Source: Terebella lapidaria (Eukaryota; Annelida; Polychaeta; Terebellida; Terebellidae). From it: a stretch of DNA of 64,000 bases. The position numbers and the translations under genes are program-made. Below the pieces are notes generated by a model. It was given only the letters and a program-made list of their open reading frames with translations. It did not search any database and was not told the origin of the DNA. The stretch lies in the NCBI GenBank assembly GCA_949152475.1, contig OX424562.1, positions 25,358,209 to 25,422,208 on the forward strand. The letters run 5' to 3'. Positions 15,400-64,000 of this stretch are shown piece after piece. Each line of letters begins with the position of its first letter. Position 1 is the stretch's first letter.

Positions 15400-16597
15400 C
15401 AGGCATGGGTTAATTCAATTTTTCATTTTTAATTGAATGATGAAACTAACTCAACTAATTTAATTTAATTAATTACATTCCATTTTCGGGTCAATTTAAT
15501 TTAATTGCCAAATATTTTTTATTGAAGTCAATTGATGCAATTAAATCACAATTAACCAGCAGTTTCCCAGCATCAACTATATATTTGATAGTTCGCATTG
15601 TTAGCGGTGGCCAGACAAAATCTACCCTCCCCCACACATTGATACTTACATTCATACCACTGTCATCGAGGATACCATCAACTCAGTAGCCTCCTGGCTT
15701 GTGACTAGGTACTTATGTACTTGTCACATATCTGTTCCATGGGGGTTTGTTTCGGATTTCTAAATTATTTTCATAGGTTATTGGGCAGTTGTATACTAAT
15801 TCCATCAGGTGTACAATAGAAACAACTACATTTAACACACTGTTTGCCCCTGATGACACCAGTGTGTCTTTGGGTAAATTATTTGATCGGGCTTTGTTTC
15901 TATTGCAAAATGTTGTATTTTACGTTTGTTTTGGTATCATCAAAATCTGACTGTATTGGTGGTAATAGATTGATACTTACATACAATAAGGGCTTTCTTA
16001 ATAAATGAACCCTCTCCCCCAAAACAAAAGCCCATCCTGTAGCTCATCTGGGTGATAATCTCTTCTGTGTCTATGATGATCTCCTTAGAACCTCAAACCC
16101 GAATTCAAAGGCAGAAAATATCAACGATCATAGACAATGGTTAATTGGCCATGGCTGTTAGGCCAAATGCCAGTACTAGCAGTCAGTGGTGTGGTTGTGT
16201 AATCTAGATCAGGACAGTATATTGAACTGACACGAGATATCCTGTAGAGATGCGAGAGATTCTATCATAAAACATCACACAAACATCTGCACCCTATGGA
16301 AAAAGGTATATATAATAGAAGTGGCCGAGTCATCGGGTTCATCTCTTATAAGTTTACTGCATATATTTGAACTGCATATGTAAATTTCCAAGCCTTCAGA
16401 AATTCTACGAGGGAACTTTTAATAAAAACTTTCAGTAATGGAGAAAGTAATTGTTAATTTGATTAATTAAATGTGTCATTTAATTGTAATGTAATTAATT
16501 AACTTGATGAAATGTGTTAATTATAATTTAATTGCATGATTTATAGTTTAATTGTAATTTAATTAATTAAAAATCCAAGTTAATTGACCCATGCCTG
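15400..16597. mobile_element. non-autonomous hAT element with 8-bp target duplication
   Basis: The left end reads CAGGCATGGGTTAATT and the right end, reversed, reads CAGGCATGGGTCAATTAA. Perfect 8-bp direct repeats GTTTGAAG flank it at 15392-15399 and 16598-16605. CAG-starting inverted ends and an 8-bp duplication are the marks of the hAT superfamily. Subterminal DNA on both sides is dense in TTAATT words. No transposase frame is present in its 1198 bases. The tandem array's repeat unit begins inside this element, so the copies to the right (21480-22486 and 27372-28279) hold only its right portion. Confidence 0.88.
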
Positions 16598-19500
16598 GTT
16601 TGAAGTAGCTTGACATGATGAGTTTAATCCTGTAAACACCCAGCATCAAACTTACATCAAACTCACTTTTAAGAGTTTGAAGTAGCTTGAAGTAAATAAT
16701 TTGGAGCACTTTGAACGTGTAAACCAGCCCTAAAATCGTATTGCTACATTCAAGACGGCCACATTATACTTGTTAATTGTTAAATTTCGTACATTCATAT
16801 ATCCATATATACATTTCATAAAATATTTTTCCTTGGATCAGTTCATTAAATGTCGACTGAGGTCAAAATTAAGGACAACAAATGATATTCCTTATACAGC
16901 TTCATATATATATGCGCGTGGTACTGTCTTGAGCTTATATACAAGTGTTTGTCTGCAGAGACAAAACGATGGCACAGAAACAGACATCGGGGCATTTCTT
17001 AACTTCCAACAACGCGAGATGGTATCACTTAGCATTGTAGCCCTTCTGTATGTCTGTGAGACTAATTATGCCTAAAATGTTCTGAAGTTGTCATTGGGGA
17101 ATATCGTACATCTGTGAAGGTCATTTATGTCGTGGCATATTTGTCAGATATAAATGTTCGAGATATTTATCGCGTGTCTTATTACCCAGAGGGGCAATGC
17201 TTCAGGGGGTTAATATATAATAGAGAAGACGCAGAAAACTTAGCAAAGCAGCGAGTCTTTCAGTGATATTACCCCCCCCCCCTATTAAATGAGCCATTGC
17301 TGTGTACAGTTCGCTAGAGGAGGTGGGATGAGACGTTTTAATTCCTGCTGGATGTTTTGCCTAGTGTAGGGCATGTGTGCCAGATGGGAACATATATGAT
17401 AAATGTTTCGTGTGTCAATGTGCTATTGCTATTGCAATGAGCAAAAAAAAATATGTCACAGTTCAAATGAATAAAAGACACGCTTTTAGGTCATGGAGAT
17501 TATGTGGAAAAGGAAGTGTATGTGTTTGCCCATTTCCACAAAAGTGGTATGCCGTTATGTGTATTCACAATAAGGATACATCCAAGTGGCGTTGGTATCG
17601 TCTTGGTAATATTAATGCACCGAAAATATACAAGATGCAAGGTTATTGTGTTATGTTCCGTGATTGATTGACACATGGAAGTAAATCCCTGATGGCATCT
17701 AACTTTTCCAGAAGATTGACAAATACAGTCATGACATTGTACTCACTGGGGCAGATCGATACTCTTGATTGGTTCTATCAGCGCTTGATATAAGTAGTAA
17801 AACAATTGTACTTGTTAGTGTAAAGTACACTGATGTATGATATGTTTAGTGTGAGTGTTTGTTTCCAAGCGAGGTTTCCCAAATGACCTCTTGCAGTACT
17901 CCTGTGATGGATATATATGAAATAACTAATTACTTTCAAGCGTAAGAGGTTACCCGTAGGAGGTTATGTTTTCCTTTGCACAGTCAATTTATAACCCAAT
18001 CTAATCTCTGCTGGTTGAGTCAGGCGTGGGTGGCTCATTGCAATGCCGCACTACCAACAACAAAGACACTGCTCCATCTCTGTCGGAGTCAAAAGGCGAT
18101 TGCGTCCGAGCTGATCCGCGCAGTTTATACGCTCTACTATCGGCGAGGACATTGATATATATATAAACACACATACATTACAAGCTTAAATGTGTGTTTG
18201 AGTATGTCATAGTAATAGGATTGAGGTGATATGGGTGCCACATGATTAGGCTTGTACTCTGCATATTTAGCCAGTTATTTAAGTCTAATTGTTCAAAATT
18301 ATTGTACACTCGTGCAAATAACTTACATATCTGTCAAGTAATATATATTACAGCACTTTTGTTCATTGTTTTTAATTTGTTAGAATGGCGAAAGTCATGT
18401 GGCTGATTCAGGTCACATGAAAACAAAATTCTATTCTAAATTTGTATATGTGGAATATTTAAAGATAGATCTACGTGTACACATGTTTTTGATTCAGTCA
18501 TTTGTCGGACATAGAGACATTCGTAACTGTTTCATGGTAGATACAAGTAATATTCGTCCAATTCAGCCTTATATATCACACAATGCGACCGATTATGGTC
18601 GATTATTTGCACACTATATCGCCCATAACAATCACACCCATGACGACATTCCGTCGTATATTACAAGCGTGGAGGTGAGATGCTATAAAATACTCAGCAA
18701 GTTTCCCAAGTTCTGATGGTCAGTACAATTCATCGTCTTCTACCAGGCTCCATAAAAGGGACAAGACGAGGTACTTTGTTACAACTTAGATTGGCTATGA
18801 GGTGATTACTGAACAGACAATTCACTACTGGGACACATCACTCATGGCACGAGGGTGGTATGTAGACAGTCCTCGGCATTCTCCTCGTGTCTGTGACGAC
18901 TGATTCGATGTCTGAGGAGATATAGTTTTATTTTCCTTCATGAAAGAAAATATGATGGGGTCTATATCAAAGCGTATGGATTGTATCCTTTTTGTTTTAT
19001 ACATCAAAATACGGCGTTTGAAACCACAATAAAAAGGTTCTATTTCTCGTTCTTGCGCTGTCCATTTCCTCTATGTTGATGTGAAGAAATTTCACACAGT
19101 TACTGATGCGTCAGGGCACGTTTCCACTATTATTATCGTCATTTCATGTAGTTATAGCAAGATGGGAGATGCAGTTCAGCAATTTGTGCAATGGTAAACA
19201 GGATTAACTTGGTCGGTGTTTAGTATACCGTCAGATAATAATGGTTCTCCTCCATCATTATGACGTAATCCAAAGGTCACAAACCTAATGAACGACACTG
19301 TCGGGCAATATGTATATATGCATTTACGTTATCGTTCGAGGCTGCCATTTGCTGTGTCTTTATTAAAAAAAATTCGTATCACTAGCACAAGGTATCTATG
19401 GGGCAGCAAATTTTAAAAATACATGACCCTCATCTGCAGAGGCAGGTTCATGAAATACCAACAAAAAAAATATCACTGTTCCTGAATACCAACGAACCTC

Positions 19501-21479
19501 CAGTTTTGACCATCGGTTTCGAAGAAGTAATTCGAGAGCAATGAGACTCAGACATCTCCTTGCACTAGCATGGAGGTTTGTTTGTTACCCATGTGATGAC
19601 ACAATTAACTGACTGGCAACCGTGAGGGGACTGAGGATAATGCCTGTTTGCAATGGACAAAGTGCATGGCATTACTGAATGACATGAAACGTGGAACGTC
19701 AGGTAAATTACAATATTATATAAGATATCGTGAACATTGCTGAATATACAGATTATACCCCACAACTGTGAGTACATGTAGATTTATCGATCTGTGGAAC
19801 CTGTCAACAGTGCCGAGTGCCAGTTACATGGCGAGTTACATGCTTGCCGTCAGGAGTTCAGGGATACCCGAAAGAGTACCCAGTGAAGTGCTCAATTAGT
19901 CTCTAAACTGTTCCCACACGAATATATGTTCCACCAAATAGCTGTCTTCAGATATACATGGATATCATCAGGATCTAGTTGATCCGTACACCAAATCCGT
20001 GACGACTATGAAGCAAGACATAGAGATTTTTCCATATTCACGACGGCCGTCATTGTGAAGTAGGAAGCCTTCTCTGCGAACTACCTGATTTAACCTCCTC
20101 ATGACCACATATGGGCCTAATGAAGTTCCTTCCCGATTTTACCTGGCATTGGACCTAGTCACGAGATTTATGTAACGTGAGGATAAATTTCTTAATTACA
20201 TGGTATAAGTGACTAAACGAAAATGCATCTATATCGTGAAGCTAGTTCGGGAACTATGTTTTATGTGTATGTGTACTTATTAACCTCAAAGATGTTATTT
20301 TCCCCATATTCTGCCTTTGTGTATCTATAATGATTAATTCTCTATGGCGGTGGTGTTGCCATGGCGATATTGATGTAGCTTTGCAATTGCCACAAAAGAT
20401 GAACATAAAACAAAACCATTACGTCATGTTACGTGCCTCAATGCTTGATGGACACATGGGAGAAATTCACAGAAGACATCCAACTTTTTTTGGTATGATT
20501 GATAAATGCTATCAAGTCGATACTGGATAACTATTTGGTCGGACTTTATTTCTATTGCAAAATGTTGTATTTTACATTTATTATTGACATCATCAAAATC
20601 TGACTGTAATGGTGGTAATAGATTGATACTTACATTGATAATAACTGGATTTATTCAGTACTGGACTGTGGATAATTATCATAATTACAAACTTTCTCGT
20701 CAGTATTTGGGACTGTGACTGGTTAATGTAATGAAAATCAATGGTTATGTAAACGCAATGGAAGTGTTCTTCCGAATCACATCAGTAAACATGGTATCAG
20801 TTATTGATTGATGGATATGAAACAGCACAAGGGGCAAAATGTTATCATTTCATACTCAATATGTAACTCCTTTGATAATCAATCCATAACCCTAGCGTGT
20901 TGTGTGGCGCCAGACTGGCCTATTGTACTGCCTAATTACCATCAACAAAGGTATTGTTCCATCACTGCCAAAGTCAATGGGTGGATGAGATCGACCTATT
21001 TGCGCGGTGCTCTATACTGGCCAATTGAGGAGGACATTGACATATGGAGGCAGATATATTATAAGTAATAATATTGTGCCTGTCAGAAGGTGGCACATAG
21101 TTACACTCGTCAAATGTATAAAAGGGTAGGTAACAAATACCACTAAATTAATTGTATTTACTCGTGCTAAACATACGTATAGATGTATCTGTGATGTTCC
21201 TGGAAACTTTGTCAAATGTCAAGTAAGAACCCGTTTGCTTATGGTAGTTTATTCATTATTTTTTTAGCATTTTGGAAGAGTACAAATGTTGACACTTACA
21301 CTATGAACTCACACGTTTAGTATACATTCAAACAAGGACTACCTTGTCTGTCAAAACTCATTTACTGAACAGGGAAAACACTTTGGAAAAAACTGATCAA
21401 AGCGTGCTTCCAAATGACAACTATCTTGTCTAATCTAAATCCATCTACTCGTATGCGTATTACCCCCCCCCCCCCCCCC
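15630..21479. repeat. tandem macrosatellite, unit 1 (about 5.89 kb)
   Basis: First of three nearly identical head-to-tail copies. It begins within the hAT element near the CTACCCTCCCCCAC tract and ends at a run of 17 C (21463-21479). Matching points in unit 2 lie 5883 bases away early in the unit and 5891-5892 later; the change comes from a C-rich tract at about 17270. Inside, two related sub-blocks (about 17370-18180 and 20315-21060) share diverged sequence such as the CAACAAAGACACTGCTCC region, so the unit is itself composite. Unit 1 lacks about 33 bases near 15660 that units 2 and 3 keep. I recognise no gene; the short open frames are discussed under rejected items. Confidence 0.9.
20522..20650. 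mobile_element. 115-bp insertion with 7-bp direct repeats, in units 1-3
   Basis: A 115-base segment (20529-20643) sits between direct repeats ACTGGAT (20522-20528 and 20644-20650). The older copy at 37393-37420 has the empty site with one CTGGAT, so this is an insertion into the array ancestor of units 1-3. Its sequence closely matches a stretch inside the hAT element (about 15870-15985), and weaker relatives lie at 12490 and 59440. It looks like a short mobile repeat of unknown class. The equivalent copies lie at about 26413-26541 in unit 2 and 33152-33280 in unit 3. Confidence 0.6.
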
Positions 21480-24400
21480 TCACACACATTGATACTTACA
21501 TTCATACCACTGAGTCGGTGTCACTGCTGGCGGACCTTAAATCTGTCATCGAGGATACCATCAACTCAGTAGCCGTCTGGCTTGTGATTAGGTACTTATG
21601 TACTTGTCATATATCTGTTCCATGGGGTTTGTTTCGGATTTCTAAATTATTTTCATAGGTTGTTGGGCAGTTGTATACTAATTCCACCAGGTGTACAGTA
21701 GAAACAACTACATTTAACACACTGTCTGCCCCTGATGACACCAGTGTTTTTTTGGATAAATTATTTGGTCGGGCTTTGTTTCTATTGCAAAATGTTGTAT
21801 TTTACGTTTGTTTTTGGTATCATCAAAATCTGACTGTATTGGTGGTAATAGATTGATACTTACATACAATAAGGGCTTTCTTAATAAATGAACCCTCTCC
21901 CCCAAAACAAAAGCCCATCCTGTAGCTCATCTGGGTGATAATCTCTTCTGTGTCTATGATGATCTCCTTAAAACCTCAAACCCGAATTCAAAGGCAGAAA
22001 ATATCAACGATCATAGACAATGGTTAATTGGCCATGGCTGTTAGGCCAAATGCCAGTACTAGCAGTCAGTGGTGTGGTTGTGTAATCTAGATCAGGACAG
22101 TATATTGAACTGACACGAGATATCCTGTAGAGATGCGAGAGATTCTATCATAAAACATCACACAAACATCTGCACCCTATGGAAAAAGGTATATATAATA
22201 GAAGTGGCCGAGTCATCGGGTTCATCTCTTATAAGTTTACTGCATATATTTGAACTGCATATGTAAATTTCCAAGCCTTCAGAAATTCTACGAGGGAACT
22301 TTTAATAAAAACTTTCAGTAATGGAGAAAGTAATTGTTAATTTGATTAATTAAATGTGTCATTTAATTGTAATGTAATTAATTAACTTGATGAAATGTGT
22401 TAATTATAATTTAATTGCATGATTTATAGTTTAATTGTAATTTAATTAATTAAAAATCCAAGTTAATTGACCCATGCCTGGTTTGAAGTAGCTTGACATG
22501 ATGAGTTTAATCCTGTAAACACCCAGCATCAAACTTACATCAAACTCACTTTTAAGAGTTTGAAGTAGCTTGAAGTAAATAATTTGGAGCACTTTGAACT
22601 TGTAAACCAGCCCTAAAATCGTATTGCTACATTCAAGACGGCCACATTATACTTGTTAATTGTTAAATTTCGTACATTCATATATCCATATATACATTTC
22701 ATAAAATATTTTTCCTTGGATCAGTTCATTAAATGTCGACTGAGGTCAAAATTAAGGACAACAAATGATATTCCTTATACAGCTTCATATATATATGCGC
22801 GTGGTACTGTCTTGAGCTTATATACAAGTGTTTGTCTGCAGAGACAAAACGATGGCACAGAAACAGACATCGGGGCATTTCTTAACTTCCAACAACGCGA
22901 GATGGTATCACTTAGCATTGTAGCCCTTCTGTATGTCTGTGAGACTAATTATGCCTAAAATGTTCTGAAGTTGTCATTGGGGAATATCGTACATCTGTGA
23001 AGGTCATTTATGTCGTGGCATATTTGTCAGATATAAATGTTCGAGATATTTATCGCGTGTCTTATTACCCAGAGGGGCAATGCTTCAGGGGGTTAATATA
23101 TAATAGAGAAGACGCAGAAAACTTAGCAAAGCAGCGAGTCTTTCAGTGATATTACCACCCCCTACCCTCCCCTATTAAATGAGCCATTGCTGTGTACAGT
23201 TCGCTAGAGGAGTGGGGATGAGACGTTCCAATTCCTGCTGGATGTTTTGCCAAGTGTAGGGCTTGTGTGCCAGATGGGAACATATATGATAAATGTTTCG
23301 TGTGTCAATGTGCTATTGCTATTGCAATGAGCAAAAAAAAAATATGTCACAGTTCAAATGAATAAAAGACACGCTTTTAGGTCATGGAGATTATGTGGAA
23401 AAGGAAGTGTATGTGTTTGCCCATTTCCACAAAAGTGGTATGCCGTTATGTGTATTCACAATAAGGATACATCCAAGTGGCGTTGGTATCGTCTTGGTAA
23501 TATTAATGCACCGAAAATATACAAGATGCAAGGTTATTGTGTTATGTTCCGTGATTGATTGACACATGGAAGTAAATCCCTGATGGCATCTAACTTTTCC
23601 AGAAGATTGACAAATACAGTCATGACATTGTACTCACTGGGGCAGATCGATACTCTTGATTGGTTCTATCAGCGCTTGATATAAGTAGTAAAACAATTGT
23701 ACTTGTTAGTGTAAAGTACACTGATGTATGATATGTTTAGTGTGAGTGTTTGTTTCCAAGCGAGGTTTCCCAAATGACCTCTTGCAGTACTCCTGTGATG
23801 GATATATATGAAATAACTAATTACTTTCAAGCGTAAGAGGTTACCCGTAGGAGGTTATGTTTTCCTTTGCACAGTCAATTTATAACCCAATCTAATCTCT
23901 GCTGGTTGAGTCAGGCGTGGGTGGCTCATTGCAATGCCGCACTACCAACAACAAAGACACTGCTCCATCTCTGTCGGAGTCAAAAGGCGATTGCGTCCGA
24001 GCTGATCCGCGCAGTTTATACGCTCTACTATCGGCGAGGACATTGATATATATATAAACACACATACATTACAAGCTTAAATGTGTGTTTGAGTATGTCA
24101 TAGTAATAGGATTGAGGTGATATGGGTGCCACATGATTAGGCTTGTACTCTGCATATTTAGCCAGTTATTTAAGTCTAATTGTTCAAAATTATTGTACAC
24201 TCGTGCAAATAACTTACATATCTGTCAAGTAATATATATTACAGCACTTTTGTTCATTGTTTTTAATTTGTTAGAATGGCGAAAGTCATGTGGCTGATTC
24301 AGGTCACATGAAAACAAAATTCTATTCTAAATTTGTATATGTGGAATATTTAAAGATAGATCTACGTGTACACATGTTTTTGATTCAGTCATTTGTCGGA

Positions 24401-27371
24401 CATAGAGACATTCGTAACTGTTTCATGGTAGATACAAGTAATATTCGTCCAATTCAGCCTTATATATCACACAATGCGACCGATTATGGTCGATTATTTG
24501 CACACTATATCGCCCATAACAATCACACCCATGACGACATTCCGTCGTATATTACAAGCGTGGAGGTGAGATGCTATAAAATACTCAGCAAGTTTCCCAA
24601 GTTCTGATGGTCAGTACAATTCATCGTCTTCTACCAGGCTCCATAAAAGGGACAAGACGAGGTACTTTGTTACAACTTAGATTGGCTATGAGGTGATTAC
24701 TGAACAGACAATTCACTACTGGGACACATCACTCATGGCACGAGGGTGGTATGTAGACAGTCCTCGGCATTCTCCTCGTGTCTGTGACGACTGATTCGAT
24801 GTCTGAGGAGATATAGTTTTATTTTCCTTCATGAAAGAAAATATGATGGGGTCTATATCAAAGCGTATGGATTGTATCCTTTTTGTTTTATACATCAAAA
24901 TACGGCGTTTGAAACCACAATAAAAAGGTTCTATTTCTCGTTCTTGCGCTGTCCATTTCCTCTATGTTGATGTGAAGAAATTTCACACAGTTACTGATGC
25001 GTCAGGGCACGTTTCCACTATTATTATCGTCATTTCATGTAGTTATAGCAAGATGGGAGATGCAGTTCAGCAATTTGTGCAATGGTAAACAGGATTAACT
25101 TGGTCGGTGTTTAGTATACCGTCAGATAATAATGGTTCTCCTCCATCATTATGACGTAATCCAAAGGTCACAAACCTAATGAACGACACTGTCGGGCAAT
25201 ATGTATATATGCATTTACGTTATCGTTCGAGGCTGCCATTTGCTGTGTCTTTATTAAAAAAAATTCGTATCACTAGCACAAGGTATCTATGGGGCAGCAA
25301 ATTTTAAAAATACATGACCCTCATCTGCAGAGGCAGGTTCATGAAATACCAACAAAAAAAATATCACTGTTCCTGAATACCAACGAACCTCCAGTTTTGA
25401 CCATCGGTTTCGAAGAAGTAATTCGAGAGCAATGAGACTCAGACATCTCCTTGCACTAGCATGGAGGTTTGTTTGTTACCCATGTGATGACACAATTAAC
25501 TGACTGGCAACCGTGAGGGGACTGAGGATAATGCCTGTTTGCAATGGACAAAGTGCATGGCATTACTGAATGACATGAAACGTGGAACGTCAGGTAAATT
25601 ACAATATTATATAAGATATCGTGAACATTGCTGAATATACAGATTATACCCCACAACTGTGAGTACATGTAGATTTATCGATCTGTGGAACCTGTCAACA
25701 GTGCCGAGTGCCAGTTACATGGCGAGTTACATGCTTGCCGTCAGGAGTTCAGGGATACCCGAAAGAGTACCCAGTGAAGTGCTCAATTAGTCTCTAAACT
25801 GTTCCCACACGAATATATGTTCCACCAAATAGCTGTCTTCAGATATACATGGATATCATCAGGATCTAGTTGATCCGTACACCAAATCCGTGACGACTAT
25901 GAAGCAAGACATAGAGATTTTTCCATATTCACGACGGCCGTCATTGTGAAGTAGGAAGCCTTCTCTGCGAACTACCTGATTTAACCTCCTCATGACCACA
26001 TATGGGCCTAATGAAGTTCCTTCCCGATTTTACCTGGCATTGGACCTAGTCACGAGATGTATGTAACGTGAGGATAAATTTCTTAATTACATGGTATAAG
26101 TGACTAAACGAAAATGCATCTATATCGTGAAGCTAGTTCGGGAACTATGTTTTATGTGTATGTGTACTTATTAACCTCAAAGATGTTATTTTCCCCATAT
26201 TCTGCCTTTGTGTATCTATAATGATTAATTCTCTATGGCGGTGGTGTTGCCATGGCGATATTGATGTAGCTTTGCAATTGCCACAAAAGATGAACATAAA
26301 ACAAAACCATTACGTCATGTTACGTGCCTCAATGCTTGATGGACACATGGGAGAAATTCACAGAAGACATCCAACTTTTTTTGGTATGATTGATAAATGC
26401 TATCAAGTCGATACTGGATAACTATTTGGTCGGACTTTATTTCTATTGCAAAATGTTGTATTTTACATTTATTATTGACATCATCAAAATCTGACTGTAA
26501 TGGTGGTAATAGATTGATACTTACATTGATAATAACTGGATTTATTCAGTACTGGACTGTGGATAATTATCATAATTACAAACTTTCTCGTCAGTATTTG
26601 GGACTGTGACTGGTTAATGTAATGAAAATCAATGGTTATGTAAACGCAATGGAAGTGTTCTTCCGAATCACATCAGTAAACATGGTATCAGTTATTGATT
26701 GATGGATATGAAACAGCACAAGGGGCAAAATGTTATCATTTCATACTCAATATGTAACTCCTTTGATAATCAATCCATAACCCTAGCGTGTTGTGTGGCG
26801 CCAGACTGGCCTATTGTACTGCCTAATTACCATCAACAAAGGTATTGTTCCATCACTGCCAAAGTCAATGGGTGGATGAGATCGACCTATTTGCGCGGTG
26901 CTCTATACTGGCCAATTGAGGAGGACATTGACATATGGAGGCAGATATATTATAAGTAATAATATTGTGCCTGTCAGAAGGTGGCACATAGTTACACTCG
27001 TCAAATGTATAAAAGGGTAGGTAACAAATACCACTAAATTAATTGTATTTACTCGTGCTAAACATACGTATAGATGTATCTGTGATGTTCCTGGAAACTT
27101 TGTCAAATGTCAAGTAAGAACCCGTTTGCTCATGGTAGTTTATTCATTATTTTTTTAGCATTTTGGAAGAGTACAAATGTTGACACTTACACTATGAACT
27201 CACACGTTTAGTATACATTCAAACAAGGACTACCTTGTCTGTCAAAACTCATTTACTGAACAGGGAAAACACTTTGGAAAAAACTGATCAAAGCGTGCTT
27301 CCAAATGACAACTATCTTGTCTAATCTAAATCCATCTACTCGTATGCGTATTACCCCCCCCCCCCCCCCCC
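21480..27371. repeat. tandem macrosatellite, unit 2 (about 5.89 kb)
   Basis: Near-identical to unit 1 over its whole length, with only scattered single differences (for example in the region of 23155-23250). It starts after the poly-C run, inside hAT-derived sequence, and contains only the right part of the hAT element, ending at its terminus at about 22486. It ends in a run of 18 C at 27354-27371. Near identity implies a recent duplication or ongoing homogenisation by unequal exchange or conversion. Confidence 0.92.
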
Positions 27372-30300
27372 TCACACACATTGATACTTACATTCATACC
27401 ACTGAGTCGGTGTCACTGCTGGCGGACCTTAAATCTGTCATCGAGGATACCATCAACTCAGTAGCCGTCTGGCTTGTGATTAGGTACTTATGTACTTGTC
27501 ATATATCTGTTCCATGGGGTTTGTTTCGGATTTCTAAATTATTTTCATAGGTTGTTGGGCAGTTGTATACTAATTCCACCAGGTGTACAGTAGAAACAAC
27601 TACATTTAACACACTGTCTGCCCCTGATGACACCAGTGTTTTTTTGGATAAATTATTTGGTCGGGCTTTGTTTCTATTGCAAAATGTTGTATTTTACGTT
27701 TGTTTTTGGTATCATCAAAATCTGACTGTATTGGTGGTAATAGATTGATACTTACATACAATAAGGGCTTTCGTAATAACTCAATCCTCTCCTCCAAAAC
27801 AAAAGCCCATCCTGTAGCTCATCTGGGTGATACTCTCTTCTGTGTCTATGATAATCTCCTTAGAACCTCAAATCCGAATTCAAAGGCAGAAAATGTCAAT
27901 GATCATAGACAATGGTTAATTGGCCATGGCTGTTAGGCCAAATGCCAGTACTAGCAGTCAGTGGTGTGGTTGTGTAATCTAGATCAGGACAGTATATTGA
28001 ACTGACACGAGATATCCTGTAGAGATGCTAGAGATTCTATCATAAAGCATCACACAAACATCTGCACCCTATGGAAAAGTAATTCTTCGAGGGAAATTTT
28101 AATAAAAACTTTCAGTAATGGGGAAAGTAATTGTTAATTTACTTAATTAAATGTGTCATTTATTTGTAATTTAATTAATTAACTTGATGAAATGTGTTAA
28201 CTATAATTTAATTGCATGATTTATAGTTTAATTGTAATTTAATTAAATAAAAATCCAAGTTTTTTGACCCATGCCTGGTTTGAAGTAGCTTGACATGATG
28301 AGTTTAATCCTGTAAACACCCACCATCAAACTTGCATCAAACTCACTTTAAAGAATTTGAAGTAGCTTGAAGTAAATAATTTGGAGCACTTTGAACGTGT
28401 AAACCAGCCCTAAAATTGTATTGCTACATTCAAGACGGCCACATTATACTTGTTAATTGTTAATTTTCGTACATTCATATATCCATATATACATTTCATA
28501 AAATATTTTTCCTTGGATCAGTTCATCAAATGTCGACTGAGGTCAAACTTAAGGACAACAAATGATATTCCTTATACAGCTTCATATATATGTGCGTGGT
28601 ACTGTCTTGAGCTTATGTACAAGTGTTTGTCTGCAGAGACAAAACGATAGCACACAAACAGACATTGGGGAATTTCTTAACTTCCAACAACGCGAGATGG
28701 TATCACTTATCATTGTTGCCCTTCTGTATGTCTGTGTGACTAATTATGCCTAAAATGTTCTGAAGTTGTCCTTGGGGAATATCGTACATCTTGTGAAGGT
28801 CATTTATGTCCTGGCATATTTGTCAGATATAAATGTTCGAGATATTTATCGCGTGTCTTATTACCCAGAGGGGCAATGCTTCAGGGGGTTAACAAATAAT
28901 CGAGAAGACGCAGAAAACTTAGCAAAGCAGCGAGTCTTTCAGTGATATTACCACCCCCTACCCTCCCCTATTAAATGAGCCATTGCTGTGTACAGTTCGC
29001 TAGAGGAGTGGGGATGAGACGTTCCAATTCCTGCTGGATGTTTTGCCAAGTGTAGGGCTTGTGTGCCAGATGGGAACATATATGATAAATGTTTCGTGTG
29101 TCAATGTGCTATTGCTATTGCAATGAGCAAAAAAAATATGTCACAGTTCAAATGAATAAAAGACACGCTTTTAGGTCATGGAGATTATGTGGAAAAGGAA
29201 GTGTATGTGTTTGCCCATTTCCACAAAAGTGGTATGCCGTTATGTGTATTCACAATAAGGATACATCCAAGTGGCGTTGGTATCGTCTTGGTAATATTAA
29301 TGCACCGAAAATATACAAGATGCAAGGTTATTGTGTTATGTTCCGTGATTGATTGACACATGGAAGTAAATCCCTGATGGCATCTAACTTTTCCAGAAGA
29401 TTGACAAATACAGTCATGACATTGTACTCACTGGGGCAGATCGATACTCTTGATTGGTTCTATCAGCGCTTGATATAAGTAGTAAAACAATTGTACTTGT
29501 TAGTGTAAAGTACACTGATGTATGATATGTTTAGTGTGAGTGTTTGTTTCCAAGCGAGGTTTCCCAAATGACCTCTTGCAGTACTCCTGTGATGGATATA
29601 TATGAAATAACTAATTACTTTCAAGCGTAAGAGGTTACCCGTAGGAGGTTATGTTTCCCTTTGCACAGTCAATTTATAACCCAATCTAATCTCTGCTGGT
29701 TGAGTCAGGCGTGGGTGGCTCATTGCAATGCCGCACTAACAACAACAAAGACACTGCTCCATCTCTGTCGGAGTCAAAAGGCGATTGCGTCCGAGCTGAT
29801 CCGCGCAGTTTATACGCTCTACTATCGGCGAGGACATTGATATATATATAAACACACATACATTACAAGCTTAAATGTGTGTTTGAGTATGTCATAGTAA
29901 TAGGATTGAGGTGATATGGGTGCCACATGATTAGGCTTGTACTCTGCATATTTAGCCAGTTATTTAAGTCTAATTGTTCAAAATTATTGTACATTCGTGC
30001 AAATAACTTACATATCTGTTAAGTAATATACATTACAGCACTTTTGTTCATTGTTTTTAATTTGTTAGAATGGCGAAAGTCATGTGGCTGATTCAGGTCA
30101 CATGAAAACAAAATTCTATTCTAAATTTGTATATGTGGAATATTTAAAGATAGATCTACGTGTACACATGTTTTTGATTCAGTCATTTGTCGGACATAGA
30201 GACATTCGTAACTGTTTCATGGTAGATACAAGTAATATTCGTCCAATTCAGCCTTATATATCACACAATGCGACCGATTATGGTCGATTATTTGCACACT

Positions 30301-51170: not shown

Positions 51171-51283
51171 GACTGGATACAGTGTTTGAGGCCCTCGGTC
51201 GTGTCTGGGCCGCGGACGCACTCGCAAGCTCGTGCGTGCTACGGCCCATACACGACCTCGGGCCTCAAACACTGTATCCAGTC
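51171..51283. mobile_element. 113-bp near-perfect palindrome
   Basis: Left arm GACTGGATACAGTGTTTGAG and right arm CTCAAACACTGTATCCAGTC are perfect complements, and pairing continues into GGCCC..CGTGT with few mismatches around a GC-rich centre. It is a foldback element or hairpin in AT-rich DNA. TTAAT on the left and AATTA on the right may relate to the target. Confidence 0.75.
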
Positions 51284-51826: not shown

Positions 51827-52025
51827 ATCACTGGGTGGGAGCTTGCCCATGACTCTTGACGAGTCAATCTTTTCTCGCAAGGGCTTTGCTCGGCATAAAA
51901 AAATTGTCCAATAGGCTTTCAGATGCACCTGTGATTAAAGATTTTTGCCGAGCAAAGCCCCTGCGAGGAAAGATTTTTACCGAGTTGACTCGTCATGAAT
52001 CATGGACAAGCTCCCACCCAGTGAT
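51827..52025. mobile_element. 199-bp foldback element in the array
   Basis: Left ATCACTGGGTGGGAGCTTG and right CAAGCTCCCACCCAGTGAT are exact complements. The arms continue with small gaps through TGACGAGTCAA and CTCGCA..GGCTTTGCTCGGCA for about 85 bases, leaving a short AT-rich loop. Array sequence resumes directly at 52026. It looks like a MITE with very long inverted repeats. Confidence 0.8.
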
Positions 52026-52150
52026 CAAACAAAATAACACCTATGTAAGCTGTCAAACAAGAGACCATTCACTAAATGAATCCCAGTTGCTCATAGCAGC
52101 AGGCTGAATATATTTGATTTGTTGTGACTATTGTATGTTTACTATACCCT

Positions 52151-55100
52151 GACCAAATAAATCTGGAACAATGATTGGTCTGTGTCAACACTATTATGCT
52201 AACACATATTTGTATTCGTTCTGGTAAACAGTCGCCCATTTCTATTCAACTGCACCGTTGCGGTCCACTCGACAATATGGAATTTGTTTAGGCTTGTTAC
52301 ATGTCGCGTAGATATTGAATACTTTGAGCCCCTTGCTATCGTAGTCCACAGAGCGATAAATAGGGCTTACTAGTAACCGAGAAGAACATCAAAGTGATCG
52401 TTGAATCAAAATGACTCTTTTTACACACGTCAATTGAAATGTTAGAGCTGACGCCCATGACGAGCTGTGCTTGAGTTGCTCTCGAGTATTTCAGCAAACG
52501 ATCATGCACCCGTTCCTCTCAAACGTCAGCTATTAGATTCACCGAATGAGCAGGTAGGAAAAGAAACACTTAATTTAGTTTATTGGACGGACCTACTTTG
52601 AATCATCAGTAAAATAATATTCACAGATATAGAACGGAGTCAGTAATCCAATCACTAAGTCATTTGTCCCACGAAACCTGAAGGAACTTAATGAGTTTGC
52701 ATATGACAATAAGAGACACAGTATATGACAATTAAGAGGTGATTGTGATGAGGTTGATCTTGTTTGCAGGCGATGTATCGTGTTTGATGAAGTAGTAATA
52801 ATATTATTACAATTTTAAAACATGTCTTTTCAAATGGTGAGATACCAATGTGAAACGTGGCTCTATTGCTACTGACAAGACAGCAATACCTGAGACAGAA
52901 AAGAGATGTGAGATGTGTTTCATTTCTTCAGATTACCGTGTTCTACACTCTCTGAGATTACCTGTAAAATATCAATTATTCATGCATTGATACCCCCGGA
53001 GCAATGGATTGACAGAATTTCGTGATCGCTCATTCCACAGACCATCGCACGAAGAAGAAACTATTGGTACCAAAAAATAGGTGAAAATTTGTGTAATTTT
53101 TTTTAGATGGGTTTACAAGAAATTCACATGGACGTTTATTAGTCTCCACTCATGAACGCAATTACATTTAGTTGTGAAATATACCATGTCGTATGTTGTG
53201 TGGATGTCTGGTATTTGAGACCACAATCAACATTTGATCCATCGTATAAGGGATAAACGCCATATTTATGGATGCACCAGGTTACTTTTCTGAATTATTA
53301 TCACATTTTTACGTTGTTGTGGTAGATGACGTATGTTGTTCGGTCATCAGTGCAATGGTGGGCAATAATAACTTAGCCGATGTTTAGTGTATTGTCAGAC
53401 ATTAAAAGTTCTGGTCCATTATGTCGTAACCCAAAGGTGACACTCTTCATCAATGATTAACACGCGTTGAATACTGGTGGATCAAACCGCACAACTGGCT
53501 GTTTTGTTGTTAGTGCCTCTCCGTTTGGTGCAAAAAATGTTGCTTTCTCATCATTCACGAATATGCTTCACACTATACACACATGCTATAGCAAATATCC
53601 TAGCAATTGACAGTCGTCAATCGTAATGAAGCCAACCCTGCACTGTTCACATTTTGTTGCAATAAAACAATATTCTTCCAATTACCAGATTGCGTGCACC
53701 AATAGCTATCAATATGACGTCGATGTGTGCATGCAATGTCCATATCTATTTTTCGAAAGACATTTGTTCAAGAGCTATTTAATGAATGTTTGAATAATGG
53801 AACCGTGACCCGATAAGTTCAAGGTACGTGCTTTTTTTCAAATCCCATGTTTGTTGAAATAGTGCAACATTCCATTGTTTATATTCATCGAAACATAAAT
53901 GAACCAGAAGATTTCGGTCAGTATATCATACAGCTTGTCACTATTGAGCTGTCCAGAATAAATGAGTCATTGTTGTGTGCCGCGTGCTCAAAGAATTATG
54001 AACGTCTTGGACATCTATTCTATATTGATGCTATGAAAGTAAGAACCAATTTTTAAATTAGCCGAATTTTCAGCATTTTTGTTCGTCACGAAAACTTGAA
54101 AGTACATCTCGAGAATATATAGGAAATATGCACAAATCGATGACAATTACTCAGAAAATCATAGTCAACCTTGCATGAAAGCACTGGGTAGAGAATGATG
54201 GCTTGCCGACATTGCCTGATGCCACAGCATCTATACAAATACCAATGACGTCATGAGGCTGTATTCAGGATTTGTTTCAAACGCAGGTAGCATTGAGAAG
54301 ATGATCGATGAGAGACTGATTGGCTCGAGTTTGAAATTTGGTTGTGGAAGCTCATTCCAAGCACAGAAAACATGCTTTCGAATCAAATCATTATGCAATT
54401 TGTCATTCTATAGACAAATGAAAATATTACAGAATGAATAAAATCAACCAATCAATCAATTCAAGTGATTCCAGCTTGAAGAATTACATGCGTGTGCCAG
54501 ATGGAAGCATGTCACGACATATGATACATATCTTATCGGCATCATCATTGTTGTTGTTTATAGCAGGAAAAACTATGTCAGGCCTATCAGTGACCGAACG
54601 ATGTATCAGCCACAAGATATCATCCATGTCATGAAGATTATTCTCTGAAGAATGTGCGCATGTGTACTTACTCATTGAAAAGGTTACTAGTATACTTCCC
54701 GATATTTTCGTATTGTGTATTTATAATTCTACCTGTGTGGTGTTGGTGTTGCCTTGGTGACATCGATTCAGCTTTACACTCGTGACAAAAAATGAACATG
54801 ATGCAATTACATGTCCCTACCAGACTACATCGCTCAACGCTCGTATGACACATGGAAGTAATTTATTGATGATACCCAACTTTCCTGGACGATTGACAGA
54901 TGCAGTCATGTCGATTCTCTGCACTGATTTATTCAATTCTAGATTTTGGATAATCGAAACGCTTCTTTACACTATTTGTGAGTGGGCTGTTTTGGTGTAA
55001 TACATAAATTTTAATGGCAATACTAACCCCGATGTAAGTGTTTTTGCCGAATGACGCATGTAAACAAGAACAAGTTCGCTGGATATGAAACAGCTAATTT

Positions 55101-56500
55101 ACTGTTAATTGTATTTCGACTGACATTGGACTTTGAGATAGACATCATACTTGGGAAGCCCGGCAGTGTCCCAGTGACTCTCCCAAAGTTGTTGATGGGA
55201 TTCTCCCAACTGCCTGACCGATTTCTAGGTTGGAGAGGGCCACTGCTGGGGCTAATACCTGTGTATCGGTTCCATGTCAATTACTAACGAGCGTGGGAGG
55301 ATTGATGTTATCATATCCTTTTCAATCTATAACTCAATCTCACTTGCCATGTCTAAGCCACAACAAGGCAAGACAACACAACCTTTAGCATGTAAGTTGG
55401 CCCCATAATGAACTTTTACGACATAACTTGAGCAACAACAAAGACACTGCTCCACCACTAAGATGGACGCGCCCGACCTGATTTGCGCAGTGTCATATGC
55501 CGATCGATTGGAGAGGATATTGATATATGAAGGCAGATTCATAACACACTCAATAAGTGATCTTTATATGTCATGATATAATTGTGCGGGGTGACAAATG
55601 GTCATACTCGTGCTCTAAATATGAATGTAGTTAATAAAGACCAATTAATACATTTAAATAACCGTGGTGGTGTTACTTCAAGCCAATTTAGAAATTCTAA
55701 CAATACAGTGCATATATACATCATACAAACAGGACCCCACCAGAAAGAAGTGCCTGCAATTCCGGGATTATGGTGATAGCTCAATCCGAGAAGGATTCCA
55801 ATCCAATTGCGGACTACTTAATACTATATAGTTACACCAATATATATGGTAAAAGTGAGTTGATATATGGCGCCCAACATGTGTGTAAGCATGACTCTTT
55901 GTTCTCGTCGATTCATCATTTTCTGAGGATGAACTCGTTATCCATCATGGTTAATCCCACGATCTCATGAAAAACAATGGAACCTGCAAGAGCAACCGAT
56001 CATGTGTTTTTTGCCAGACTGTAATCTAGACAAACAATCTCGCGTGTACTGTCTCATGGGTGATTGCTTTTGGTTAATGATTTTAATCTGACGCACGGGT
56101 CAAAACGAAATAACACCGATGCAAGCTATCAAACACGATACCTTTCACTAAATTAATCCCATATGGTTTTGGCAGCACGCTGAATATATTTGCATTGTTG
56201 TGACTATTGTACGTTTACTAAACCCCGACCACATGAATCTAGAACAATGATTGGTCTGTGTCAACACTATCGCCCTAATACGTGTTTGTATTCATACTGT
56301 TACACAGCCGCCCATATCTAGTCAACTGCATGACTGCCATCAACTCGTCAATGGAGAGTTTGTTCAGGCTTATTGTCTGTCTCGTAGCTATACAACGATA
56401 CGAGTAGAGTGTGGGTTGTTTGAATACCTGCTGCCGTATTCCAATGATTGCGATAAGTTGGACTCAATGTACTCATTTGATACTCATTAGATACCTTTTT
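52151..56500. repeat. older array copies (unit 6 and the start of unit 7)
   Basis: The landmark TGATTGGTCTGTGTCAACAC occurs at 52172 and 56248, a spacing of 4.08 kb. Between them, in the order seen in other copies, are GGGTTTACAAGAAATTCACA (53107; like 41396), GTCGTAACCCAAAGGTGACA (53420; like 43988), GTGCCAGATGGAAGCATGTC (54493; like 44610 and 17378), TTGTGTATTTATAATTCTAC (54712) and GCAACAACAAAGACACTGCT (55432; like 18054). The unit lacks the sequence at 41470-43740 of unit 5. Unit 7 is traceable only to about 56500. Confidence 0.8.
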
Positions 56501-58310: not shown

Positions 58311-58406
58311 TGTTTTAGTAAATTCTATAATAATATCTTCCTGAAGGAATTAAAAGACTGACACATGAATGTATGGTGTTTCGAAACTAACGTCATTTGC
58401 CAACTT

Positions 58407-60647: not shown

Positions 60648-61489
60648 CTACATCTTGACTTTGGGAGGTTCACCGTTGGGCATGCGATCACGTGTTCTGT
60701 GGTGTAGGGCTGTGTTTGAGGCTGTCATATCCTCTGGTTGACGTCTGTATATATGTGCATTTTCTTGACCCATTTCATTGTCGAAAGGAGTGGTATCAGT
60801 CGGCGGGGGTTCCTCGTCCACAGCCTCGCTTGTATGATCTCGCTCCAAGATGCCGATCTTCTCGCCTACCCAGCGGAACTTGGCGACAATCTCCTCCTGG
60901 ATCAGTGAGAAGCACATGGAGAGGATGGCCATCCCAAACAACATGTACACTGCTGCTCCGATCATCTTCCACTGGTCTGACTGCTGTTTGAATTCTGCAG
61001 AACCGGGCACCACGTCACCAAATCCAATGGTGGATATCGTTACAAAGCAGAAGTAGGCTGCCTGTAGGGGTGTCCATTCCTCCCAAACGCCAAAGAGAAT
61101 AGAACCCATGAAGATGTAGCCTCCAATAACGCCCATCGTGATGGTTAGTGGGACGCTTATCTTATCGTCGTCATCATCTTCCGCATCATCTTCATCGTCT
61201 AAAACTGTAGGACCTCCAGGTTTGGCTGTGTTTTTCTGATGGTTGTATTCGTGCTTCCAAGCCTCTGGTGAGGTGCCATCTCCGGTCAGCTGCAGATTGA
61301 TGGCTTTCGATTTATCCTTCCGACGGCAGCAGCCGCAGCAACACACCTTGGTATATACGAAACGAAAGATGTCTGCCATGACGTCACCGATGTTGGCCAG
61401 GCACAACAACATCAGGGGAATCCCAAGAGTGGCATAAGCGATACACACCAACCGTCCCCAGAAAGTCTTTGGAGCGATGTTACCATAAC
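60648..61489 (-). CDS. two-pore-domain potassium channel, last exon (gene partial)
   Basis: The minus strand reads from the acceptor GTTGCAG|GT at 61490/61489 to TAG at 60650-60648. The first two bases finish the pore glycine codon, then [20 protein letters not shown] (TM2), the same CCCGCC cluster, an acidic loop (DDEDDAEDDDDD), SVPLTITMGVIGGYIFMGS (TM3), the second filter TIGFGDVVPG, TM4 with [31 protein letters not shown] and a tail ending EPPKVKM. It is a paralogue of the 2585-4872 gene with the same phase-1 intron in GYG, very alike in helices and pore and diverged in loop and tail. The first exon (TM1, cap, pore helix 1) is not in the 2.5 kb to the right edge, so the intron is longer than that. 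It faces the left gene tail to tail. Confidence 0.94.
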
Positions 61490-62189
61490 CTGCAACATAG
61501 AACAAACTGTTAAAGCTACTGCCTTGGAATGTATGCAATATTTTTTTTTCAAAAATAAATGTTTGTGCAACTTTTCTAATGCAAGATAACAAAAGATGTG
61601 CTCAATGATTTTGACCATTACAATTGTCCGAGTTGTCTTTTCATCCGTTTTAATACACAAGTTGTACCGGTTTTGTATATCAACAATCGAAAGTGTATCC
61701 ATCAAAACCGAATGTAAACAAATGCCCAAGTCACGCTTAAAAGTCCACATCGAGTACATTTTCCAGTTCGTATGTGCATATATAGTGTAGTTATGAGAAA
61801 ATAATCAGTGATGTACCATGATGTGAAATTGGCAGTCCATCTTGCACTTCTATGCTTTGTTTACATCTGCGTGTGATGGATACAGTTCTTGTATTTACGC
61901 GAAAACCGCCTATTCAAATGAGCAAAATTTCCCAGAGAACTACTGGTTGTAGTCATTTCATTTGATATGAGTATGGCTCATTCAGTTAATTCAGCATGTT
62001 TAATATGAAATATAGTTTTCAAAAATTATTGACTGGTTTCAAAGGCAGTTGCTTTAACAAGAAAAGCAATTGGAGATGTTGTTCGACAACGAGGCCACCA
62101 TATAATTCAATTCATAGCTGTTCTAAGATATCTATTGAGAAGACACAAATGGTAAGCAGGTAATTTGTGGCTGTCACCCCATTTTGGCT
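61490..62189 (-). other. intron of the right-hand K2P gene, proximal part
   Basis: Intron sequence next to the acceptor GTTGCAG. A T-run in the plus strand at 61542-61550 and no coding sequence. The short open frame running through the acceptor is read-through. Confidence 0.7.
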
Positions 62190-64000
62190 TTGTGTCTATC
62201 GATTCATTCAAGCCAGAGAATGAACAAATGAATGTCGTGTTAATTTAATTTGAAAAACACGTACATGTCCCATGTACATAAGTCATGAAATGTTATTCTT
62301 CCTCGGGAATCTCACAGATTGTCGACCGAGGTTTTGACCATATTGACACTTTTGACAATAATGTGACACTTGGCCCAGGACAAACGCACCACTCATTCAC
62401 GATGTCAAGCAAAAGGCCACTCACCGAACTATTCAAAAGTTCGTTTGGTGACACTTCGTATTCACAACGCCGTGCCTTTCATTTAAACCCGTCCACTTGT
62501 GCAAAGGTTTGTTTGTGTTAGCACACTGTTGTGCTAATAATGTTTGTATTCATGTTGGTGAACAATCGCTTTTCATCTTCTCGACAATGTGGAGTTTGTT
62601 CAGGTCAATAACTTGTCGCATGATCACATAGTAATCATTTATCGTATAGTTATTGAATATTTCGAGTCCATCGCTACCGTATCCCATTGAACGATAGCAT
62701 CAAATGGAGCTTAGCCAAGGAGGTTTTCAAGGCACTCGTTGATTTTTCAGCTAGGTGAATGGAAATGTTGTAGACTAGATTCCATTAGGATGTGCTATAT
62801 AATTTGCTTTCAGGGTATGATACGTGTGATGTTTGGCCAGCTGTCAATGCCCCAGGCCTCCTCTGTTTAAATGCATTGTGTGATGAATTGATATATAGTT
62901 TTACCCAAAAATGTTGATGGCACACAAAACAAAAACGTGTAACTATGTATGTAGCAGAAAGAAGAAAACATAATATATATATATATTTGTGTATGTATGC
63001 AAAGTACTTGGCGCATTGACACAAAAGAGTGCCCCAATTGTACTCGGTGAGATCAGTAATGACATATTGACATACTAGTGCATACTCTTCAATATTGCAT
63101 GTTTACTTCATAGATGTCCATAGAATCAGTGTTTTTTCGTGGGCGCAAAAAACTACTAAACTATGATTTGTACGTGTGAATATATGTTGTTTATAAATGA
63201 AATGTGTAAATAGATGTTGGTCTATGGGCCATGTTAGGAATGGCCTGGGATTATGAACGACCACTACAATTAGTATGTAATTTTCGAACATCAAAATGAA
63301 AAAAAAAACAATGAATGCAATACGGACTTCGTGAAAGAAACCCATGATAAGAACATAGTTACCTCCCGAAAAGCCGACATAAACAAAAGATTTATTTCTA
63401 AATAGACATGAAGTTTTCCAGCCATGAGAAATATTTGATCTCTGATAACTATTCCACAATATACATTATGGTGATTCCTGTAGTTTAGACTCATTTATCA
63501 TCAAATGCGGACAATGTTTGGTCATTCTCCTACACATTATCGCCCATTACAATCAGACCCATGGCATCCCGTGATGTATTTCGAGCATTATGTGGAATGT
63601 TATCAATTATTCAGTAGTTTTTCTTTTCAGCTAGGTCAGCACAATTCACCATCTTCTACCAGGATCCATTAAAGCGCTTACACGAAGTGCTCTGTTACAT
63701 CGTGGTTTGGATACCAGTCATTATTCAACACAAATCATTCCTGGGACATATCACTCAAGACACTACGAGAATATGTAGACAGTCGTCTGCATTCATCTCG
63801 TGCCCAGGTTATTCATGTGGTACGATCCCTCGGGACTCACGGTAGCATTTTGATGCATATAGTTTTGATGTCCTGCATATTAGATATATCGTATCAAATC
63901 GCGAGGGATTTGTTACAGTCTGTATTCTATGGCTTGTTGAACAATCCATGCAGGTTTGGAACTTGTGTATTTGTGTAAATCAAATTCATTACAAATACAA
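62190..64000. repeat. older array copy (unit 8), inside the K2P intron
   Basis: Blocks matching the array in the usual order and orientation: TGTCTATCGATTCATTC (62190; like 34624), AATAATGTTTGTATTCATG then GACAATGTGGAGTTTGTTCAG (62535; like 35000), TATTGAATATTTCGAG (62650), ATCGCCCATTACAATCAGAC (63539; like 18619), CACAATTCACCATCTTCTAC (63641) and AGACAGTCGTCTGCATTCAT (63776). The copy runs off the right edge. At about 62285-62515 it holds about 230 bases that I do not find in other copies. Its place in the intron shows the array reaches into the channel gene. Confidence 0.75.

Follow-up and report, generated by a model that had tools for sequence, protein, structure and literature searches.

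The window that we analysed, a stretch of 64,000 bp of Terebella lapidaria DNA, holds an array of long repeats in a cluster of four closely related K2P channel genes, three on the forward strand to the left and one on the reverse strand to the right. The first exon of the reversed gene is at 76131-75646, outside the window, and is separated from the second by an intron of ~14 kb that contains one array copy, so the K2P setting is as the first-pass annotation described it. A genome search with the second exon returned four close matches (66-100%), which are the four genes themselves, and 22 weaker matches on other contigs. COX1, located on a small contig and translated with genetic code table 9, is judged by us to follow the invertebrate code, with AGA as Ser, TGA as Trp and AAA probably as Lys.

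Units of the array lie head to tail on the plus strand from ~17 to 65 kb, broken up by insertions. Based on self-comparison and profile searches, the ancestral unit is ~4.1 kb long and its segments run I-T-T2-C-D-F-G-H/E. A collinear map emerged from profile HMMs of nine segments, none of which had a match in the reversed-sequence control; the tandem array reported from the letters alone is therefore real. Its five landmark blocks were all found on the plus strand: TGATTGGTCTG at 34957 (with one mismatch), 40323, 52172 and 56248; CACAATGCGACC at 18579, 24470, 30264 and 31210; GTCAGATAATAATGG at 19230, 25121 and 31861, and at 35810 with one mismatch (allowing three mismatches adds three plus-strand matches and one on the minus strand); GTTGCCATGGCG at 20355, 26246, 32985 and 37228, and at 44828 with one mismatch; and CAACAACAAAG at 18055, 23946, 29740, 30686 and 55433. 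Raw T-to-T distances are 5366, 11849 and 4076 bp, insertions included. The order of the blocks is consistent, as had been claimed, but the recent copies lack the T block. Likewise, a single orientation holds within ~17-65 kb and not beyond: the plus-strand array runs past the window edge to about 65.2 kb, and the family is inverted at 78.1-102.9 kb, outside the window. Altogether there are about a dozen units, mostly old, in this one assembly. GC content of the array region is 35-42% per 2-kb bin. Elsewhere in a 264-kb stretch there are weak matches to the I profile (eight near -60 kb, seven near 90 kb), to the F profile (92.7 and 138.6 kb) and to the T2 profile. The features of the window are as follows.

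15400..16600, unstranded, dispersed DNA element at the left array edge (sequence, and scattered genome matches to the corresponding part of copy 2)
15660..21542, plus, recent copy 1, ~5.88 kb (comparison with copy 2)
21543..27434, plus, recent copy 2, 5.89 kb (alignment to copies 1 and 3)
27435..34095, plus, recent copy 3, with an internal 946-bp duplication (1.4-1.8% from copy 2)
34130..38060, plus, old unit I-T-T2-(C)-D-F-G-H/E, the most complete compact copy (profiles, alignments)
38077..38193, plus, reverse-transcriptase-like fragment (LINE-like) between two old units (RVT_1, below cut-off)
39270..45250, plus, old unit I-T-T2-C-D-G, C and D separated by extra sequence (profiles, alignments)
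49187..49627, minus, DDE transposase (DDE_Tnp_4) fragment between array units (Pfam, above cut-off)
50646..51497, plus, H/E fragments of an old unit (profiles, alignments)
51662..55740, plus, old unit T-T2-D-G-H-E (next T 4076 bp on)
54020..54481, unstranded, dispersed element inside the preceding unit (52 of 55 genome matches fall here)
55851..56468, plus, old unit, I(end)-T part (profiles, alignments)
60648..61601, minus, open frame with exon 2 of the reversed K2P gene (Pfam, genome search)
62188..63816, plus, old unit, T and C parts, within the K2P intron (profiles, gene model)

At the left end are three recent copies of ~5.9 kb, 0.2-1.8% apart outside the dispersed element. Each is laid out as G-H-E followed by C-D-F-G-H-E, about 1.5 old units, plus a piece of the dispersed element. 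The tandem repeat starts inside this element, whose termini, read by eye, resemble an imperfect inverted repeat, CAGGCATGGGTTAATT ... AATTGACCCATGCCTG. In copy 2 the first ~0.94 kb and the last ~59 bp match dispersed sequence, and the junctions of the recent copies sit in such sequence. The internal duplicates of copy 3 (29450-30395 and 30396-31341) have three mismatches in 946.

Identity among most old units is ~57-81% in alignments, and insertions and deletions break the units up. The reverse-transcriptase-like fragment (E 1.7e-4, 21.8 bits against a Pfam cut-off of 29.6) is followed by more open frames to about 39066, and the frame beside the DDE_Tnp_4 fragment, 49822-50343, had no Pfam match above cut-off. 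The span of repeat units is interrupted, with both of these fragments and dispersed pieces inserted within it. Beyond the unit at 55851..56468 there is an H-like remnant at 59542-59961, and the D part of the unit in the K2P intron is at 64719-65168, outside the window. In trees and tiles, kinship among the units is mosaic: T of the 34-kb unit groups with the 40-kb unit, and its D and G group instead with the recent copies. This is the pattern that unequal exchange would leave.

In searches of the whole genome at the DNA level, all matches to the T segment (8/8), the C segment (7/7), the H/I segment (7/7) and a query from 30-32 kb (10/10) were at C8 25.37-25.46 Mb. With a query from 43751-45249, three of seven matches were on other contigs, each merely 50-59 bp. 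These searches score only the best candidates, so confinement means that no copy was seen elsewhere rather than that none exists. The search with copy 2 for dispersed sequence, in which 39 of 5383 candidates were scored and the window's own copies are not among the matches listed, is uninformative about the undispersed part of the copy. We considered the array as a scattered transposon and rejected this, because the T, C and H/I segments matched this locus alone; the earlier suggestion of an unknown element's remains, if taken as one spread through the genome, is not supported, on the same result. Copies at many unlinked places were found for the inserted pieces and not for these segments. Dispersed elements make up some of the span, and to that extent similarity within the array comes from transposons. 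No transposon protein or remains were detected by Pfam in 10 array ORFs, and we noted that the reverse-transcriptase-like and DDE fragments fall between units and not within them.

Six-frame comparisons between units gave 1085 matches and were judged on the best of these; stops and frame breaks were seen in all six frames, and we found no reading frame kept across copies. All 10 array ORFs examined lacked a Pfam match above cut-off. Rfam had no match at gathering across the window (one unit has a weak match to MIR476, 27.8 bits against a gathering score of 80, in a palindromic stretch), and ARAGORN returned nothing useful. Consensus folding of T, D and C gave weak structures, with double changes in 2/23, 2/20 and 5/27 pairs and covariation terms of +1.55, +0.06 and +1.21 kcal/mol for the three folded segments. 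RNA-structure support for the units is negligible.

Within the units, similarity between distant copies appears to be concentrated in islands of ~300 bp, of which one example copy each is given here, all on the plus strand and based on tiles, anchor z and alignments.

34815..35115, plus, T island
37078..37378, plus, G island
41525..41825, plus, C island
43792..44092, plus, D island

Tiles in the islands match copies in nearly all units and adjacent tiles mainly those in close relatives; whichever of three query units is used, the same islands are picked out. Median z is 4.0-13.6 within 150 bp of the anchors and -0.4 to 0.8 beyond 300 bp; in two core tiles, 25/28 and 26/28 T pairs exceed z 4. 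We compared islands with the rest of the same alignment in a set of 22 alignments, which had one representative of the recent triplication, dropped near-duplicate starts, and left out alignments with <400 columns, >90% identity, <100 core or <150 other bases. The islands had the higher identity in 20 of the 22, including all nine rows with inverted copies, two of these by 0.005 or less; the C and D anchors were set on alignments that included inverted copies, which means that the 9/9 does not count as independent. When cores were placed on the first-pass landmark strings only, islands were ahead of the rest against inverted-copy partners in 11/13 alignments of at least 300 columns and in 3/4 of at least 400, comparisons that are not independent of one another. 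On this repeat test we consider the functional readings a little less likely. A palindrome at 51.8-52.0 kb adjoins an island, and pieces at 57.07 and 41.77 kb, beside islands, recur three times and once in the 264-kb stretch. The G core has a putative likeness to the RFX X-box, and the T core a putative inverted CCAAT. Sixteen islands searched for a CTCF-like motif with a consensus resembled 400 random 300-bp pieces.

We believe that the array probably arose when a non-coding segment was duplicated in tandem again and again, and that one edge of it was amplified recently. A segment of ~4 kb beside the K2P cluster would have been duplicated head to tail repeatedly, either through unequal crossing over or through replication-based tandem duplication, and so long ago that most copies are now ~57-81% identical. 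One part would have been duplicated or turned into the inverted orientation at 78-103 kb, and one copy would have come to sit within the reversed K2P gene, in its enlarged intron. The inverted block requires a further step beyond head-to-tail duplication. The dispersed element at the junctions of the 5.9-kb triplication may have played a part at the left edge. That the units are instead a decayed protein-coding cluster, of K2P genes or a fast-evolving secreted family for example, is very improbable: the array sits in the K2P cluster and some units have ORFs of about 100 aa, but frames are interrupted, the array ORFs drew no Pfam match above cut-off, and the second K2P exon has no match in array units. 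The first-pass term macrosatellite loosely fits the recent triplication, whose copies are ~98-99.8% identical outside the element. As kilobase units head to tail at one locus the array fits as well, but high identity between units is found only among those three, and the bulk is heterogeneous, interrupted and partly inverted, which makes a strict macrosatellite, homogenised and variable in copy number, unlikely. Copies 1 and 2 differ at only 11 of 5472 aligned bases outside the element (0.2%), as two haplotypes duplicated by the assembly might; their first 643 bp differ at 13 positions, however, and a third copy with its own internal duplication is next in tandem, so we regard such an error as quite unlikely.

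For the islands, we would put neutral decay of the old tandem duplication at just short of an even chance; they would then reflect ascertainment, together with flanks having been replaced through insertions and deletions. In four collinear old pairs, windowed identity has only 1.6-2.3 times the binomial variance, and the palindrome and recurring pieces beside islands are consistent with this reading. Against it, the same islands emerge from three queries and the landmark-only comparison with inverted copies favours them, within its lack of independence. A tentative alternative is that what has been copied is a functional non-coding feature, such as a lncRNA promoter or exon, an enhancer or an insulator, with islands under purifying selection and possibly acting on the K2P genes. 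The tile matches, the z near anchors and the island comparisons (20/22, 11/13, 3/4) speak for it. In the longest old alignment, however, conservation is lower in the islands (0.665) than outside them (0.718). Between copies 2 and 3, differences number 12/1806 in islands and 75/3256 elsewhere (Fisher p 7e-6), but they occur in clusters, and when the island positions were shifted along the copy, three versions of the test gave 0.019, 0.19 and 0.19; as the result is not robust to this, we do not claim selection in the recent copies. The neighbouring control array at 65-75 kb has far-flank similarity in 23/56 tiles against 11/40 here at an equal length cut, a modest difference; with unequal cuts (control >900 columns, old alignments >250) far tiles with z >4 were 23/56 against 7/128, a contrast that we do not rely upon since it shrinks once the cut is equal. 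Both the shifting and the control-array results suit neutral decay, and weak structure and the absence of enrichment for a CTCF consensus also count against function. Based on sequence comparison, the apparently better keeping of islands T, C, D and G than of their flanks in distant copies is a hint of a regulatory or RNA function that the remaining tests do not bear out firmly, and any selection on them may be weak. A fuller version is doubtful; in it, regulatory elements or lncRNA genes would form a tandemly amplified family whose 4-kb units each have four to five constrained ~300-bp islands, and this family would have grown over a long time between and inside the K2P genes, continue to expand at one edge and occur in both orientations about the reversed K2P gene. 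The "old non-coding gene family" suggested earlier survives as an old non-coding tandem duplication family, with its claim to be a gene weakened.

We found no description of this array in a small literature search. As described in PMC3218863 and PMC3491370, DXZ4 and mouse Dxz4 are local non-coding tandem arrays with a 3-kb unit; only short parts of the DXZ4 unit (promoter, CTCF site) are alike over long distances, and conservation of adjacent units in mouse is said to differ from primates. The array here is likewise a local non-coding tandem repeat whose distant units share short parts. DXZ4 is characterized there as GC-rich, X-linked and CTCF-bound, unlike the units here, which are 35-42% GC, mostly ~57-81% identical, partly inverted, and not enriched in a CTCF consensus. 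Human macrosatellites, in what PMC3018141 and PMC3599962 say of them, are highly polymorphic large arrays; kilobase-scale head-to-tail units at one locus are shared with them, in contrast to the dozen or so mostly old units seen here in one assembly. Duplicated conserved non-coding elements follow gene duplicates, as reported in PMC1896008, and the array has similarly short non-coding stretches, which may be slow-changing, near a duplicated gene family; it differs in that profile search gave no copy of T, C, D or G near the three left K2P genes.

Long-lived local non-coding tandem arrays are easily missed, because gene callers pass over them and repeat libraries are aimed at dispersed families. 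Should the islands not be functional, this locus illustrates well how old tandem duplication and insertions can produce an apparent mystery repeat. If they are functional, it would offer paralogous non-coding elements of graded age side by side, as a compact natural series, for asking which portions of a regulatory or RNA unit withstand decay.

The five landmark strings named in the first-pass annotation were found in the window by string search as it had described them, and self-BLAST agreed that the copies lie on the plus strand, with plus/plus matches between different units up to the window's right end (positions are window-relative, negative to its left and above 64 kb to its right). Older similarity between units was found at ~67-81% identity by self-BLAST, and was extended at 57-81% under more sensitive scoring. 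Nine segment profiles (I, T, T2, C, D, F, G, H, and E) were made from seed copies and searched against 264 kb; a single order was kept among the strong matches, and reversed-sequence controls over the same 264 kb gave zero matches for 9/9 profiles. Weak I, F, and T2 matches occurred at other places in the 264 kb, including eight of I near -60 kb and seven of I near 90 kb, with weak F matches at 92.7 and 138.6 kb.

The old unit has the order I-T-T2-C-D-F-G-H/E and is contiguous, in that at 34.13 kb the H of recent copy 3 leads directly into the following unit's I. Successive T segments lie 5366, 11849, and 4076 bp apart, uncorrected for insertions. The recent copies do not each correspond to a single unit: T is absent from them, and each consists of G-H-E and then C-D-F-G-H-E. 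The family also goes on in inverted orientation beyond the window.

Array copies and K2P channel genes at the locus
Starts 15660, 21543, 27435; +; recent copies 1-3, ~5.9 kb each (self-BLAST), leftmost in the array
~34.1-38.1 kb; +; old unit, right of the recent copies
~39.3-45.3 kb, with H/E remains at 50.6-51.5 kb; +; old unit
~51.7-55.7 kb; +; old unit
~55.9-60.0 kb; +; old unit
~62.2-65.2 kb; +; old unit
78.1-78.5 kb; inverted; C, outside the window
80.2-80.7 kb; inverted; T, outside the window
84.2-84.8 kb; inverted; T, outside the window
91.4-92.0 kb; inverted; D, outside the window
94.2-94.5 kb; inverted; C, outside the window
96.8-97.2 kb; inverted; T, outside the window
100.9-101.6 kb; inverted; H/E and G, outside the window
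102.4-102.9 kb; inverted; C and G, outside the window
Second exons starting near -8.4, -0.65, 3.94 kb; +; three left K2P genes
Exon 1 76131-75646, exon 2 61595-60726; -; reversed K2P gene

The genome comprises 761.6 Mb in 438 contigs, with the window at C8:25358209-25422208. Our genome DNA searches pass over very frequent words, and scoring is confined to the top candidates. Single-segment queries placed all matches of T (8/8), C (7/7), and H/I (7/7) within 25.37-25.46 Mb of C8, the contig that carries the window, as did a query at 30-32 kb (10/10). For a D-G query from the unit at 43.8 kb, 4/7 matches were at the locus and 3/7 were on other contigs, 50-59 bp each. Some of the DNA in the array is dispersed: a query across 53.2-55.9 kb had 52/55 genome matches on one dispersed insert, and the 5.89-kb copy begins with 0.94 kb and ends with 59 bp of dispersed sequence, going by the listed part of 171 matches (best 39 of 5383 candidates scored). 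Some of this sequence is dispersed as a 364-bp unit; among the matches listed, such units stand in tandem at other loci and are mostly 91-96% identical to the part of copy 2 that corresponds to the left-edge element described below. Elsewhere, self-complementary 20-bp tandem arrays (ATACGCGTACTTAATATTAA) occur in both orientations at 8875-9482, ~1.7 kb from a reverse-transcriptase frame (6098-7240). On the flanking pieces, L022:1231-5496 (~115-119 kb) is an open frame for an LTR-retroelement polyprotein with RT, RNase H, and integrase, and L023:2841-4205 (~127-128 kb) is a frame whose SGNH match falls below the cut-off. We also noted that COX1, in addition to its match on C438, a contig that looks mitochondrial, has a second, partial match at C417:44633-46450, which may be a copy in the nuclear genome or belong to a contig of foreign origin.

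The left-end copies are very similar. Copies 1 and 2 have 11 differences in 5472 aligned bases with the element excluded, copies 2 and 3 have 41/2319 and 53/3691 in two overlapping comparisons, the first ~643 bp differ at 13, 24, and 13 bases in the three copy pairs, and within copy 3 a duplicated stretch of 946 bp has 3/946 differences. Where the unit's H ends, copies 1 and 2 continue with the dispersed element and copy 3 with native I sequence. By eye, the termini of the left-edge element (15400 to about 16600) look like imperfect inverted repeats. Exchange at or near the dispersed element would be the simplest explanation of the recent amplification.

Four closely related K2P genes lie at the locus, and they are the only close genome matches of a K2P second exon (66-100%), with 22 weaker matches on other contigs. 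Ion_trans_2 (Pfam) was over the cut-off in both second exons tested and below it in the sole first exon tested (19.6 vs 22.5 bits). The exons are ~1 kb or less apart in the three left genes versus ~14 kb in the reversed gene, whose intron contains T, C, and D from one array unit. A further tandem array occupies 65163-75125 of the same intron (outside the window, on flanking pieces L017-L018); it has about three copies, which align over 1.1-2.6 kb with 61-74% identity, and bears no evident relation to the first. Searched over the 264 kb, the segment profiles detected none of T, C, D, or G beside any of the three left genes, so the repeats show no sign of having traveled with the channel genes.

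Decay of the old units is uneven. When three units were tiled against the region, copies in nearly all units were matched by the tiles that cover T, C, D, G, and part of H/E, and most of the intervening tiles matched close relatives only. With fixed tiles, the median z within 150 bp of the anchor was 10.3 and 13.6 for T, 7.5 and 11.0 for C, 9.0 and 10.8 for D, and 4.0 and 9.0 for G, falling to 0.0-4.4 at 150-300 bp and to -0.4 to 0.8 beyond 300 bp, part of this drop being technical because fixed tiles lose register at indels. Identity in the ~300-bp islands at these anchors exceeded that of the rest in 20/22 gapped local alignments, by a mean of 6 points. In a repeat test with cores set on landmark strings only and, as partners, inverted copies that lie outside the window and were thus unseen in the first-pass annotation, this held for 11/13 alignments with 300 columns or more, by a mean of 6 points, and for 3/4 of those with 400 or more.

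Several observations speak against constraint on the islands. The longest of the old alignments, 31487-34163 against 35457-38072, is reversed, islands 0.665 versus rest 0.718, to which misalignment may contribute; windowed identity in four collinear pairs is over-dispersed only 1.6-2.3 times; and the shortage of differences in islands between copies 2 and 3 (12/1806 vs 75/3256 in the rest) weakens to p 0.019-0.19 on shifting the islands. The neighboring tandem array is also patchy, with 23/56 far tiles at z > 4 versus 11/40 here under the same length cut, and insertions beside islands also sharpen their edges. From these alignments, constraint on the islands is possible.

Segment trees (T, C, D, G) are mosaic between units. 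For T, the units at 34.6 and 40.0 kb form a pair (support 0.93), and the first of these units groups with the recent copies for D and G (35.5 and 36.9 kb). For D, the copy at 64.7 kb and the inverted one at 91.4 kb form another pair (support 0.57), and support among distant copies in the C tree is 0.00-0.55. Because several nodes are poorly supported, the detail of this history is limited; such mosaics would be expected from shifting unequal exchanges followed by an inversion or an inverted duplication.

We found little to suggest coding or structured RNA content. Among the matches listed, six-frame alignments between old units were of similar strength in all six frames, with stops and frame breaks, and none of 10 array ORFs of 92-128 aa passed the Pfam cut-off, one being below it at E 0.056. 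Rfam gave zero matches at gathering over the whole window, and ARAGORN no tRNA. The sole Rfam match of one unit at E < 1 was a MIR476 line (27.8 bits vs 80), which comes from a 205-bp near-palindrome at 51824-52028, immediately left of a T island and perhaps a small inserted element. Compensatory pairs in the consensus folds number 2/23 for T, 2/20 for D, and 5/27 for C, and the covariation terms of these folds lend no support.

Homogeneity is taken as defining macrosatellites, and a macrosatellite in that sense fails here since the units are not homogeneous. The array is local, non-coding, and built on a kilobase scale, which places it among macrosatellite-like and tandem segmental duplications. 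No description of it was found in the literature searched; for the keeping of only short unit parts over time, the nearest described parallel is DXZ4 (PMC3218863, PMC3491370). The original observation stands, with corrections on unit makeup and extent: the array is an old family of locally tandem-duplicated non-coding DNA that has recently expanded at one edge. Its extent and age are unusual; its kind is ordinary unless the islands are functional.
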